Positions 1-5,331 of a stretch of DNA of 64,000 bases are shown here, piece after piece. The stretch covers positions 1 through 64,000 of the forward strand of contig PKDQ01000023.1 of the NCBI GenBank assembly GCA_002862645.1. The letters are read 5' to 3'. The position numbers were made by a program, and so were the translations under genes. Position 1 is the first letter of the stretch; each line of letters opens with the position of its first letter. The notes beneath the pieces were generated by a model that made no database searches, was not told where the DNA came from, and saw only the letters and a program-made list of their open reading frames with translations. The stretch is from Flavobacteriaceae bacterium. Its GTDB lineage: Bacteria; Bacteroidota; Bacteroidia; Flavobacteriales; Flavobacteriaceae.

Positions 1-1493
1 TGAAAATAAATACACTTTTAATCGGCTTAATATTTACCCTAATGGCAACTTCTTGTACAGACGGATCTCCTGAAATAAACGTATATGAGACTTCAGAAAG
101 CGGAAATAAGCTAACGCAAGTACATGACTTTAAAACTCTAGAAGCCCCTTCGACCATTACCTTGGACACCTCTAAGGAACTCCAAACCATTACAGGTTTT
201 GGGGGAGCTTTTACAGAATCATCTGCATATCTGCTCAATCAGGTAAGCAAAGCGAATAGAGACAAAATTTTAAAAGCATATTTCGCAAAAGATGGCGCGC
301 GCTATTCACTTGCACGCACGCACATGAATTCATGTGACTTCTCGCTCAACAACTACTCTTACACGCCTGTTGCAGGTGACAAGGAGCTCCTTCATTTTTC
401 AATTGAAGAAGACAAAGACGATTTGATACCTATGATCCAAGATGCCATGGCTATTTCTGAAGATGGTTTTAGGCTTTTCGCTTCTCCTTGGACAGCTGTG
501 CCTTGGATGAAAGACAACAACAATTGGATTGGAGGGAAACTGCTTCCTGAATACTACGACACTTGGGCTTTATTCTTTTCCAAATATGTTGATGCTTACA
601 AAGATCAGGGCATTGATATTTGGGGCTTTACTGTTGAAAATGAACCCCATGGGAACGGCGAAAATTGGGAAAGCATGCATTATTCACCCGAAGAAATGAC
701 TCATTTTGTGCAGCATTTCCTCGGACCAAAACTAGAAGCTGATGGCAAAGGAGATTTGGTTATTTTGGGTTATGATCAAAACCGAGAAGGCCTAAAGGAA
801 TGGGTAGATGTAATGTACCAAGATGAGGCCTCATCCAAATATTACGATGGAACTGCTGTACACTGGTATGAGAGCACTTACGACTATTTCTCAGAAGAGT
901 TGCAATACGCACACCAAAAGGCACCCAACAAGTATTTGATTCAAACCGAAGCTTGCATAGACGCAGAAGTTCCTGTGTGGCAAGACGACAATTGGTATTG
1001 GAAGAAAGAAGCCACAGACTGGGGGTATGACTGGCGAGAAGCAGAAAAAAAATACCTACATCCCAAGTATGCGCCAGCAAACCGCTATGCTAGAGATATT
1101 ATTGGTTGCCTTAACAATTGGGTTGACGGATGGGTAGATTGGAATATGGTATTGGATACCATGGGAGGTCCGAACTGGGCAAATAACTGGTGTATTGCAC
1201 CCGTAATAGTCGATACCGAGAAGGATGAAGTTTACTTCACACCACTCTATTACATCATGGCGCACTTTAGTAAGTTTATTCGACCATACGCCAAAGTAAT
1301 TGATGCCCATAAAACCGATTCGGAATTGATGGTTACTGCTGTTAAAAATCCAGATGGGAGTATTGCTGTTGTAGTCTTTAATGAAGGGAAGATAGCTAAG
1401 AGTTTTGAGTTAAAACTAGGTGACATTTTAAAAAATATTTCGATAAGCCCTCAAGCTATTCAGACAATAACCCTTTCAAATCAAGCATTGTGA
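1..1493 (+). CDS. GH30 family beta-glucanase/glucosidase, lipoprotein (first base outside window)
   Basis: Secreted glycoside hydrolase of family GH30; flavobacterial members in laminarin loci remove beta-1,6-linked glucose. The frame is open from base 3, and an A just before the window would make an ATG. That start gives a lipoprotein signal peptide (MKINTLLIG...) with a lipobox ending MATSC, so the ATG at 42 is probably internal and the full protein is about 497 residues. Numbered from the inferred start, the acid/base is Glu215 in VENEP and the nucleophile is Glu317 in QTEAC, both typical of GH30. A C-terminal beta domain (about 420-497) follows the barrel. The stop overlaps the GTG start of the MFS fusion, so the genes are translationally coupled. 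Family call is strong; exact linkage specificity is inferred. Confidence 0.88.
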   Translation, partial: KINTLLIGLIFTLMATSCTDGSPEINVYETSESGNKLTQVHDFKTLEAPSTITLDTSKELQTITGFGGAFTESSAYLLNQVSKANRDKILKAYFAKDGARYSLARTHMNSCDFSLNNYSYTPVAGDKELLHFSIEEDKDDLIPMIQDAMAISEDGFRLFASPWTAVPWMKDNNNWIGGKLLPEYYDTWALFFSKYVDAYKDQGIDIWGFTVENEPHGNGENWESMHYSPEEMTHFVQHFLGPKLEADGKGDLVILGYDQNREGLKEWVDVMYQDEASSKYYDGTAVHWYESTYDYFSEELQYAHQKAPNKYLIQTEACIDAEVPVWQDDNWYWKKEATDWGYDWREAEKKYLHPKYAPANRYARDIIGCLNNWVDGWVDWNMVLDTMGGPNWANNWCIAPVIVDTEKDEVYFTPLYYIMAHFSKFIRPYAKVIDAHKTDSELMVTAVKNPDGSIAVVVFNEGKIAKSFELKLGDILKNISISPQAIQTITLSNQAL

Positions 1494-3844
1494 AAAGTGG
1501 TTCACACATCGTTCAGCCTAAAAAAGTTCCTATGGGCCAAAAGATTGCTTTTGGTTTCGGGATGTTAGCCAATCAAATGTTCCCGGCCATATTAGGGATT
1601 TTTATGGTTGTATTGGTGCAAGACTTAGGTTTTCCTGGATGGATGTGGTCGTTAATTTACTTTTTTCCGAGAATATTTGATTCTATTACAGACCCAATTA
1701 TGGGCTTTATATCAGATAATACAAAATCAAAGTGGGGAAGACGTAGACAGTATGTTTTGGCAGGTGGTGTTCTTATGGGGATTGCCTATATTTTTATGTG
1801 GCAACTTTTTAAAGAAAATTCACTTGAATATAACTTTTGGTATTTCTTTTTCTGGTCCATTTTATTTTACCTAGGGCTCACCCTATTTAGTGTTCCTTAT
1901 GTAGCTATGGGCTATGAGATGAGCGATGACTTTCACGAACGTACAAGCATTATGGCCATTGCTCAATGGATTGGTCAATGGGCTTGGGTAATTGCCCCAT
2001 GGTTTTGGGTAATTATGTATGATCCAGAATGGTTCCCCTCGGCAGATGTAGCTGTACGAGAACTTGCCATTTGGGTTGCTATTCCTTGTGCTGTTTGCGC
2101 CATGATACCTGCAATATTTATAAAAAGTAAGTCAACTGTTAATGAGGACTACGAACCCCTAAACAGCGCCAACATTGGCAATAGTCTTCTAAAGATTTAT
2201 CACAGTTTTGTGGAAGCTTTTAAAATCAAAGAATTTAGAAAATTATGTGGCGCCACATTTTTAATTTTCAACGCATTTAATACCGTTGCAGCACTCACTT
2301 TTTTTGTTATCGTGTACAAGCTCTTTAATGGTGATGCGGAAGCAAGCGGTATTTGGGTTTCTCTTTTTGGCTGCTTGGGTGCATTAGGTACCACTTTTAT
2401 CGTAATACCCATCGTCACATGGATGTCAAAGAAGTTTGGCAAGAAAAGGGCATTTTTGTTGGCACAAGGCATTTCTGTTATAGGATATGCCATGCTTTGG
2501 TTTTTATTTGTTCCAGGAAAGCCATGGATGTATATAATAGCCCTTCCGTTTTTCTCTTTTGGCATAGGAAGTTTGTTCACCATCATGATGTCCATGACTG
2601 CCGATGTAATTGATGTAGACGAACTAAACACAGGTTTGCGTAGAGAGGGAATCTTTGGCGCCATTTATTGGTGGATGGTCAAAGTCGGTTTTGCTATTGC
2701 TGGCGCACTAAGTGGTGTTATTATCGCATTTGTTGGCTTTAATCCAGACCTTGCCACAACAGAACAGGAATCTGCCGTTAACGGATTACATGCCTTCTTC
2801 TGTTTCTTCCCTTTGGCGGGAACGCTTTTTGCTATGTACATCATGAGAAACTATAGTATTGATGAAACGCGGGCAAATGAAATCAGACAACAAATAAAAG
2901 CGCGTAAAGCCGCACCTAAAGCTCTTGTATCGTATTACAAACAAGGAAAAATTAAGGAATTTACCGATGCTAATTTTAACAAGTCATTGGAGGGAGATAT
3001 TGATTTCAGTGGCCTAGCTAAAAATACCCAAGCCAAGCTATTCAAAGAGACCTTAGCAAATGGGCTTCATGGATTGTGCTTTAGCCCCTACAGAGAGAAC
3101 CAAAACATTGGCCACAAACTTTCGAAAACACAAATTAACGAGCGTATGGACATAGTAGCACCTTACACCAAGTGGATTCGTTCGTTTTCTTGTACAAAAG
3201 GCAATGAGTTTATAACTCAGGCTGCAAAAGCGAGGGGGTTAAAAACAATGGTAGGTGCTTGGATAGGAGCTGATGCCGAGGAAAACAAGAAAGAAATCGA
3301 CGCCTTGATCAAGCTTGTCAAAAACGACCAAGTAGATATCGCGGTTGTGGGTAATGAGGCTTTGATGCGAGATGAGCTCAGCGAAGCACAAATAATGGAT
3401 TATATCGCTCAAGTTAAGAAGGCAAACCCAAAGGTTCAGGTCGGGTATGTTGATGCCTACTACGAATTTATTCAACGGCCAAAGCTGGTTGATGCCTGTG
3501 ATGTAATTTTAATAAATTGTTATCCATTTTGGGAGGGATCAACTATCGAATCTTCCACGGCTTATTTAAAAGAAATGCATGAAGCTACAAGTAATGTGGC
3601 CAAGAACAAACCCATTATTATAAGCGAGACAGGATGGCCTAATCAAGGTGAACGTGTCGAAGCAGCAATTCCCACAGCGTCAAATGCTGCACAGTATTTT
3701 GTGAATGTAAATCTCTGGGCCAAACAAGCACAAATACCCTTGTTTTACTTTTCCTCATTTGACGAGTCTTGGAAAGTTCACCACGAAGGAGACGTAGGTG
3801 CACGTTGGGGTATTTGGGACAAGAACGAAAAATTAAAACACTAA
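1490..3844 (+). CDS. MFS (GPH-type) sugar symporter fused to a C-terminal GH17 beta-glucanase domain
   Basis: 784-residue fusion. Residues about 10-465 form a 12-helix glycoside-pentoside-hexuronide type cation symporter, with the family signature DSITDP...GFISDNTKSKWGRRR after helix 2. After a basic linker (about 470-490), residues about 495-784 are a complete GH17 domain with acid/base Glu623 (VGNEAL) and nucleophile Glu713 (ISETGWP). GPH transporters have both termini in the cytoplasm, so the hydrolase should face the cytosol. It would act on imported beta-1,3-gluco-oligosaccharides as they arrive. The start is GTG inside the GH30 stop (GTGA overlap). The GH17 part is clearly homologous, roughly half identical by eye, to the next gene, which suggests tandem duplication followed by fusion. 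Substrate is inferred from context. Confidence 0.88.
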   Translation: MKSGSHIVQPKKVPMGQKIAFGFGMLANQMFPAILGIFMVVLVQDLGFPGWMWSLIYFFPRIFDSITDPIMGFISDNTKSKWGRRRQYVLAGGVLMGIAYIFMWQLFKENSLEYNFWYFFFWSILFYLGLTLFSVPYVAMGYEMSDDFHERTSIMAIAQWIGQWAWVIAPWFWVIMYDPEWFPSADVAVRELAIWVAIPCAVCAMIPAIFIKSKSTVNEDYEPLNSANIGNSLLKIYHSFVEAFKIKEFRKLCGATFLIFNAFNTVAALTFFVIVYKLFNGDAEASGIWVSLFGCLGALGTTFIVIPIVTWMSKKFGKKRAFLLAQGISVIGYAMLWFLFVPGKPWMYIIALPFFSFGIGSLFTIMMSMTADVIDVDELNTGLRREGIFGAIYWWMVKVGFAIAGALSGVIIAFVGFNPDLATTEQESAVNGLHAFFCFFPLAGTLFAMYIMRNYSIDETRANEIRQQIKARKAAPKALVSYYKQGKIKEFTDANFNKSLEGDIDFSGLAKNTQAKLFKETLANGLHGLCFSPYRENQNIGHKLSKTQINERMDIVAPYTKWIRSFSCTKGNEFITQAAKARGLKTMVGAWIGADAEENKKEIDALIKLVKNDQVDIAVVGNEALMRDELSEAQIMDYIAQVKKANPKVQVGYVDAYYEFIQRPKLVDACDVILINCYPFWEGSTIESSTAYLKEMHEATSNVAKNKPIIISETGWPNQGERVEAAIPTASNAAQYFVNVNLWAKQAQIPLFYFSSFDESWKVHHEGDVGARWGIWDKNEKLKH

Positions 3845-4759: not shown

Positions 4760-4842
4760 ACCTGTTTAATTTTTTTCTGCGAACGAGCGGTCTTACCTAT
4801 GAATAGTCTTTTAGACAATGCACAAGAAGTGTATCTTTGAGG

Positions 4843-5331
4843 ATGCGTTTCTGTTATTTGCTTTTTTTCGTTGTGTTGGTTGGTTGTACACAAAAACAGC
4901 CTCCTCTTTCTTCAGACAAGGCTGTTATAGTCGATACCCTTATTCAAAAAACACCCCTTAAAATACCTGTTGCAAGACAGGAATTAAATTGGTCGAACGT
5001 ATTGGCGTTAATGGAGTCTTTGCACGAAATTCCTTCTGACCAACGTGCTATTACCCTTAAAAACATCAAAGCGGAAGCCATTAAATTAAATAGGCAACCC
5101 TGGCCAAAAGACTGGGATACCAAGCCTATTCGTGCACGTTTTAATGTATTTGTAACCCATGTGAGTATCGCTGCAGACCAGCGTCTAGGGGATGCTGCAC
5201 TCGAAGAACAAAGCCTAGCCATTAATAAGATGAAAACAAGTTGGGATATATTTTCCGACCTAATCAGCGGCGATACTATGTTAACGGGCTTCAACCCCAC
5301 AATCAGCCAACCGATAAGAAAAACCGAATAG
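4843..5331 (+). CDS. Small hypothetical lipoprotein
   Basis: Not recognised. The protein of about 162 residues begins with a short hydrophobic segment and a lipobox (VLVGC) at about residues 13-17, so it is probably a lipid-anchored periplasmic or outer-membrane protein. The rest is mostly helical and charged. The open frame extends to a TTG at 4837, but the ATG at 4843 sits directly before the signal peptide and is preferred. It follows the GH17 operon by about 80 bases but shows no carbohydrate-binding features. Its last 51 bases overlap the 3' end of the opposite-strand epimerase-like gene. Confidence 0.65.
   Translation: MRFCYLLFFVVLVGCTQKQPPLSSDKAVIVDTLIQKTPLKIPVARQELNWSNVLALMESLHEIPSDQRAITLKNIKAEAIKLNRQPWPKDWDTKPIRARFNVFVTHVSIAADQRLGDAALEEQSLAINKMKTSWDIFSDLISGDTMLTGFNPTISQPIRKTE

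Follow-up and report, generated by a model that had tools for sequence, protein, structure and literature searches.

Laminarin represents a very large flow of marine carbon, and laminarin loci ranked with the most highly expressed loci of bloom bacteria (PMC6246565, PMC10108472; these and the other papers named below are drawn on in excerpt). The closest described system is FbGH17B of Formosa sp. Hel1_33_131 (FORMB_24740, AOR29491.1), a GH17 module placed behind a 12-helix MFS transporter; its GH17 part acts only on debranched laminarin, with the oligosaccharide products going to glucose, and the MFS–GH17 fusion was described as common among marine Flavobacteriia, the authors being then aware of no such fusion of a transporter and a carbohydrate-active enzyme in other bacteria (Unfried et al. 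2018, PMC6246565). A GH17–MFS fusion was subsequently reported from most variant-1 laminarin polysaccharide utilization loci (PULs) expressed by metagenome-assembled genomes (MAGs) of North Sea blooms, with SAR92, Luminiphilus and SAR86 MAGs listed among the carriers of variant-1 PULs (PMC10108472, 2023). The stretch analyzed here (the window) comprises the 64,000 nucleotides at positions 1 to 64,000 of contig PKDQ01000023.1 from the Flavobacteriaceae bacterium assembly GCA_002862645.1, and codes near its start for a further member of these already described fusions, in a small-genome genus of Flavobacteriaceae. The fusion is real and well conserved, and the original prediction was right in its reading of the joined frame and in its cytosolic placement of the hydrolase; its statement that no characterized fusion was known is contradicted by FbGH17B, described with its GH17 part assayed in 2018, and by the bloom MAG fusions of 2023. 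What we add to the known fusion is evolutionary and active-site evidence, which makes the idea of coupled import and cleavage specifically testable.

The frame, the Pfam matches, the alignment and the structure model agree on a 12-helix GPH/MFS-type symporter joined in one 784-residue frame to a complete GH17 domain with both catalytic glutamates, as first proposed. Pfam places MFS_2 at residues 21–459 (E 1e-63, 215.8 bits vs a gathering score of 27) and Glyco_hydro_17 at residues 708–783 (E 9.8e-12, 45.5 bits vs 28.2). The features of the gene are:

1490..3844, + strand: MFS(GPH)–GH17 fusion gene, 784 aa, a single open reading frame (ORF)
1490..2911, + strand: GPH/MelB-type symporter part, residues 1–474, with 12 transmembrane helices and a short cytosolic helix (predicted)
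1679–1681 and 1691–1693, + strand: D64 and D68, corresponding to MelB D55 and D59 by alignment to MelB
2912..3070, + strand: linker and start of the GH17 part, residues 475–527, from the structure model and the fusion alignment
3071..3841, + strand: GH17 TIM-barrel domain, about residue 528 to 784; the model fits 4wtp (Z 31.1, 251 residues)
3356..3358, + strand: Glu623, proton donor (GNE motif); Glu in 95/95 fused domains
3365..3367, + strand: Met626, aligned with MlGH17B Tyr136, the +1 subsite platform for transglycosylation according to PMC11005184
3626..3628, + strand: Glu713, nucleophile (SETGWP motif); Glu in 77/78 fused domains, the remaining one being a gap in a truncated frame
3779..3784, + strand: His764–His765, aligned with MlGH17B Gly274–Ser275, a loop beside the +1 subsite (numbering from PMC11005184)

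Compared by published description, FbGH17B has the same order of an N-terminal 12-helix MFS part and a C-terminal GH17 domain in another organism, and its cluster includes GH30 and GH17A, a GH30 gene likewise adjoining the fusion in the window; the variant-1 North Sea PULs, again by description, carry the same gene fusion in laminarin loci. The transporter half shares with MelB (PDB 4m64, 8t60) its fold, 12 helices and the equivalents of D55/D59, both invariant across an alignment of 58 fusions (A1, the input for the structure model), but MelB lacks a hydrolase domain and is 15% identical in the structural alignment. The hydrolase half shares with RmBgt17A of Rhizomucor miehei (PDB 4wtp) the GH17 barrel, both glutamates and the equivalents of Trp157/Glu158, at 28% identity; RmBgt17A differs in being a transglycosylase, with Tyr102 in place of the methionine and no transporter joined in the solved chain. 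Glu713 aligns to the residue mutated to Ala in 4wtr, an active-site mutant of the R. miehei GH17 glucanosyltransferase. Between the positions corresponding to the linker ends, the 58 fusions have 50–61 residues.

We consider it highly probable that the fusion constitutes the inner-membrane step of a variant-1-type laminarin locus, importing debranched beta-1,3-gluco-oligosaccharides and hydrolyzing them in the cytosol. The joined frame, its intact catalytic residues, the cytosolic side, the locus context and the conservation emerge directly from the computation. Briefly, we infer the following for the substrate, exo action and cation coupling of the window protein: the MFS part, as a GPH-type cation symporter, would import the debranched oligosaccharides from the periplasm; the GH17 domain, held on a short linker at the cytosolic face, would hydrolyze them on arrival, probably to glucose as FbGH17B does; and the standalone GH17 and the GH149 phosphorylase of such loci would process the remainder in the cytosol. 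A transporter that carries a cytosolic hydrolase of its own would illustrate how the import of oligosaccharides is sustained.

The suspicion that the join is an artefact of assembly or frame, prompted by a fragmentary source genome of 35 contigs, is of negligible probability and was rejected, as many independent genomes have the two parts joined at this very point: the MFS_2 plus Glyco_hydro_17 architecture recurs as one ORF in many families. Full-length matches without an internal stop were present in 9/100 relatives searched, own genome included, from four genera. Of 395 members of the family (completeness at least 90%, the own genome excepted; two candidates scored per genome, so that the counts are lower bounds), 102 had a relative at E 1e-120 and 26, own genome included, a full-length stop-free match, while three more carried the fusion with a second transporter type. 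A scan of 296 genomes of the class gave a relative at 1e-80 in 19 and a full-length stop-free match in seven, own genome included, plus two more fusions (G249, G314) with the second transporter type. Among loci from named genomes 69/80 were fused in one ORF, the list being the best 80 of at least 565, a bias towards good full-length matches that favours fused copies; within these best 80 the fused loci come from Flavobacteriaceae, Weeksellaceae, Saprospiraceae, Lewinellaceae, Haliscomenobacteraceae, Cyclobacteriaceae, Flammeovirgaceae, Microscillaceae and Balneolaceae. Six records titled betaproteobacteria also carry the fusion (two Rubrivivax, two Comamonadaceae, AAP65 and one uncultured), five of them MAGs or uncultured, so that single labels may be wrong. 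Some flagged candidates were discarded as separate genes: the 1020–1045-aa frames of G050 and G060 (the only two inspected of several such genomes), which are separate in the ORF list, a 1121-aa frame in G423, and the candidates of G022, G059 and G015, each marked by a single internal stop.

On which side of the membrane the hydrolase lies was approached through the AlphaFold model (mean predicted local distance difference test score 87.4), which shows 12 membrane helices, the last of them followed by a short helix, then a weak linker at 476–479 and a TIM barrel. In structure comparison (Foldseek was also run) its front half matches MFSD2A and inward-facing MelB (Z 35.5–36.9) and its rear half the GH17 glucanosyltransferase 4wtp (Z 31.1, 251 residues, root-mean-square deviation 1.9). 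With loop boundaries drawn by hand on a single protein's model, the 58 aligned fusions average 26.1 Lys/Arg on the N-terminal-side loops including tails vs 2.4 on the other side; with the tails excluded, the inner loops alone are richer in 58/58 fusions, and the short loop 4–5 has none. After residue 475 there is no hydrophobic stretch of membrane strength and no 13th helix (maximum hydropathy 0.83). Hydrophobic N-terminal segments were called by a simple hydropathy rule, not SignalP; the rule is crude and gives some false positives where an ORF starts at an internal Met. Such a segment was called in 0/102 standalone GH17 relatives, 73/89 GH30 and 33/38 GH17A-like ORFs. Given the 12 helices, the Lys/Arg excess on the N-terminal side, the lack of a later helix and the signal-free standalone relatives, a cytosolic position of the GH17 domain is most likely; the prediction of 12 helices with both termini cytosolic agrees with what had been proposed for the symporter. 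A periplasmic GH17 domain feeding the transporter from outside could appeal to PMC6246565, which in the excerpt is not clear on the side and mentions simultaneous cleavage and transport; it would conflict with the even helix count, the positive-inside distribution and the absence of hydrophobic starts in the standalone relatives, and we rejected it on the predicted topology as very improbable.

The second line of evidence concerns the active site. MlGH17B of Muricauda lutaonensis is an unfused transglycosylase 53% identical to the FbGH17B module; an Ala mutant of RmBgt17A Tyr102 lost transglycosylation, FbGH17B has Met where MlGH17B has Tyr136, and docking places Gly274 and Ser275 of MlGH17B beside the +1 subsite (PMC11005184). 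The window fusion, like FbGH17B, has a methionine at the Tyr136 place, and the Tyr/Trp/Glu trio of the aglycone subsites associated with transglycosylation is thereby incomplete: Trp681 and Glu682 are present and Tyr is replaced by Met626. Both states occur within the window operon, with Met626 in the fusion and Tyr144 in the adjoining standalone GH17. In the counts across relatives (rows below 240 aligned residues dropped), the Tyr136 place, corresponding to RmBgt17A Tyr102, holds Leu in 56, Met in 25, Tyr in 5, His in 5 and others in 4 of the 95 fused domains, vs Tyr in 123 and Leu in 15 of 138 standalone GH17. The Gly274 place has His, Arg or Gln in 73/95 fused domains and Gly in 131/138 standalone ones; the Ser275 place has His or Gln in 72/95 fused domains and mostly Ala, Asp, Pro or Ser (Ser in 14/138) in the standalone set. 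Neither set shows any variation at Trp681, Glu682 or the donor Glu623.

The replacement of Tyr by Met or Leu around the +1 subsite predicts hydrolysis rather than transglycosylation for the fused domain; on these residues, the membrane-bound fused GH17 would be a hydrolase and the free cytosolic standalone GH17 a transglycosylase. The opposite view, that the fused GH17 is mainly a transglycosylase which, like MlGH17B, would rebuild imported oligosaccharides into larger or branched glucan or trap them in this form, draws on the best solved relative (4wtp) being a glucanosyltransferase, on the transfer activity of MlGH17B, on the conservation of two of the three transfer residues (Trp681 and Glu682 in 95/95 fused domains), and on PMC11005184, which in the excerpt leaves open an undetected transferase activity of FbGH17B. 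We regard this view as unlikely in light of the scarcity of the third residue in the fused set and the release of glucose by FbGH17B (PMC6246565). Returning to the predicted hydrolase, the signature is a single clade-level difference with exceptions rather than a series of independent events: a test of independent pairs for association of fusion with loss of the Tyr yielded only one such pair and no statistical support.

Phylogenetic analysis places this signature in a historical frame. A FastTree phylogeny of 177 GH17 domains (five rows below 200 aa dropped) puts the fused (77) and standalone (100) domains on two sides of one branch with support 93, from which the fused GH17 appears to be a lineage separate from the standalone GH17 next door. 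When a tree of 80 of the 254 domains (rows below 240 aligned residues dropped) was rooted with a third GH17 type, on a very long outgroup branch (3.56 changes per column to either side of the root), the fused domains were not one clade: a seven-member fused group lies beside the standalone clade with support 92. This group has five type-1 fusions, with the transporter type of the window, and two type-2 fusions, with Tyr retained in 4/5 and 1/2, respectively. L062, L064 and L139, copies of L034, L035 and L040, were dropped from the analyses, as were, from the rooted tree onward, the duplicates L155, L160, L168, L182 and L184.

The type-2 transporter is a paralogous GPH type about 40% identical to that of the window and unfused in 32/36 cases; at four loci, L143 (G249), L165 (G639), L171 (G411) and L142 (G314), it is fused to GH17. 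In the transporter tree these four fusions fall in three places among unfused relatives, and their single grouping is rejected by the approximately unbiased test (p 2.6e-25; a quick tree of 36 type-2 and only 17 type-1 transporters, with the label defining the group). Their four GH17 domains all lie outside the standalone clade of the GH17 tree, in two places among or beside type-1 fused domains. Since the type-2 fusions are scattered in the transporter tree while their GH17 domains lie within or near the fused lineage, a fused GH17 of this kind has joined to, or exchanged, its transporter several times. The open-licence PMC literature on laminarin fusions, as excerpted and with no search aimed at the second type, gave no report of type-2 fusions. 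Taking these strands together, we tentatively advance, as a reading that may well prove wrong, a cytosolic GH17 exo-hydrolase with a remodelled +1 subsite, held at the inner mouth of two distant GPH types, with the transporter half exchanged several times. If GH17 has indeed been retained across exchanged transporters, the coupling of import and first cleavage would itself be selected, pointing to a modular transporter–hydrolase machine and not a one-off fusion.

The converse process is also apparent. In a quick tree of 114 transporter parts (rows below 370 aligned residues dropped; many forks open and some rows long), the fused or unfused label changes 8 times, at least 5 of these on well-supported branches, and the unfused transporters of sister species and of Polaribacter, Algibacter and Croceivirga branch from among fused ones. 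Most simply, this tree would reflect a single ancient fused lineage in which the GH17 domain was lost repeatedly. Among the unfused type-1 transporters, 15/20 are accompanied in the same stretch by a standalone GH17 of full size; the remaining five have none, fragments or a contig end. One loss has left a trace: in sister genome G006 (L058:9540-9735) a stop closes the transporter frame, and about 80 bases after it still align to the fusion junction, though with gaps and changes (alignment score 85 vs 47 for the best of 200 shuffles). Beyond them comes sequence matching what lies behind the standalone gene in the window (score 82 vs 44 for the best shuffle). In this one fragmentary assembly the junction survives as a decayed remnant behind an intact transporter, with both GH17 units lost. 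The unfused transporters of L041, L045, L059 and L060, from sister species of the window's genus, form a long branch and are 61–67% identical to that of the window, as if evolving faster or acquired from elsewhere.

These switches, in which the transporter is kept, and the many loci with separate genes speak for the idea that fusion is a mere convenience of co-expression, with tethering having no kinetic effect. The spread of the fused state across Bacteroidota, Balneolota and betaproteobacterial records, and its appearance at several places on the second transporter type, speak against this idea, which we hold to be conceivable but doubtful. Tethering might give channelling or, as originally proposed, prevent back-flux, or might do no more than fix stoichiometry and place. 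Fused and unfused loci, one fossilized loss and two transporter types furnish natural controls on whether tethering matters.

Several further points weigh against coupled import and cytosolic hydrolysis as set out above: (i) the nesting of unfused transporters among fused ones shows the fusion to be dispensable, and with the GH17 domain lost and the transporter kept, coupling is not essential; (ii) the predicted template modeling score for the whole fusion is 0.60, so that the mutual placing of the two domains is not given by the model; (iii) NCBIfam TIGR00792 (GPH) scores 181.9, below its cut-off of 231.35 bits, and the transporter half is therefore filed as MFS_2/MelB-like and not as a TIGR00792 member; (iv) the exo action of FbGH17B rests on one study; (v) the N-terminal segment call is crude, at least two GH17A-like positives starting at an internal Met, and a lipobox motif occurs only in 42/89 GH30 and 10/38 GH17A-like ORFs; (vi) a Muricauda GH30 is predicted to be cytoplasmic (PMC13188888), so that debranching before import is not certain and wholly periplasmic debranching is weakened. 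The expectation that the fusion would change the usual picture of periplasmic saccharification was borne out in part: that picture is extended and not overturned, since periplasmic enzymes still seem to take part, most GH30 and GH17A-like ORFs having a hydrophobic N-terminal segment by the same simple rule.

The start of the window is the tail of a laminarin locus with GH30, the fusion and a standalone GH17, the contig beginning at GH30 with the SusC/D part of the locus outside view. The genes flanking the fusion are:

3..1493, + strand: GH30 enzyme, of beta-1,6-glucosidase type by its relatives (Pfam Glyco_hydro_30, 3e-74), with its 5' end cut by the contig start
3848..4759, + strand: standalone GH17, 303 aa, without signal, Tyr144 kept, 51% identical to the fused domain

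The GH30 directly upstream and the signal-free standalone GH17 relatives agree with the laminarin context first proposed for the fusion. The GH30 ORF is open back to base 3, and its relatives have N-termini (MKTN..MATSC) resembling a lipoprotein signal. The fusion gene has a GTG start at 1490, overlapping the GH30 stop, and its own stop codon ends at 3844; an ATG stands at the start position in sister genome G006 and in a second copy of the own genome. The fused domain shares its GH17 subgroup with MlGH17B, itself an unfused transglycosylase; the standalone gene resembles MlGH17B in the retained Tyr, the lack of a signal and an adjoining MFS gene. A GH149 beta-1,3-glucan phosphorylase is present in the locus of a sister genome, and two matching pieces lie on other contigs of the window's own genome. 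Directly after the locus is a small ORF (4837-5331) that begins like a lipoprotein (VVLVGCTQ), lacks a Pfam match and is kept in G006; housekeeping-type genes follow downstream.

The second MFS–GH17 copy of the own genome (L051, G000:C29:1-6151) is 87% identical over the protein and nearest to the copy of sister G014. Upstream of it is an ORF resembling GH17A at its start and GH30 at its end, as though the two had been brought together by a deletion, and downstream of the copy is a GH3. True paralogy was not adopted in view of the affinity to G014, and this copy may represent a strain mixture or a rearranged second locus.

Other loci show further variation. In the Comamonadaceae locus L136 the fusion is accompanied by GH1, GH16 and both smaller GH17 types, and by a LacI-like regulator that scores below the model cut-offs. 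The third, short GH17 type (about 310–340 aa, 25–30% identical, without a hydrophobic start) adjoins the standalone GH17 in several loci, examples being:

L065:9239-10192, third GH17 type
L107:9454-10413, third GH17 type
L136:5896-6906, third GH17 type

In L046 (8514-10879, G004) the fusion gene is broken by a frame change within the GH17 part, either an assembly error or a pseudogene. The transporters of G060 are nearest to those of an Algibacter record, and its locus has a 218-aa ORF without a Pfam or NCBIfam match (L042:6110-6763) between a second-type GPH transporter and the standalone GH17.

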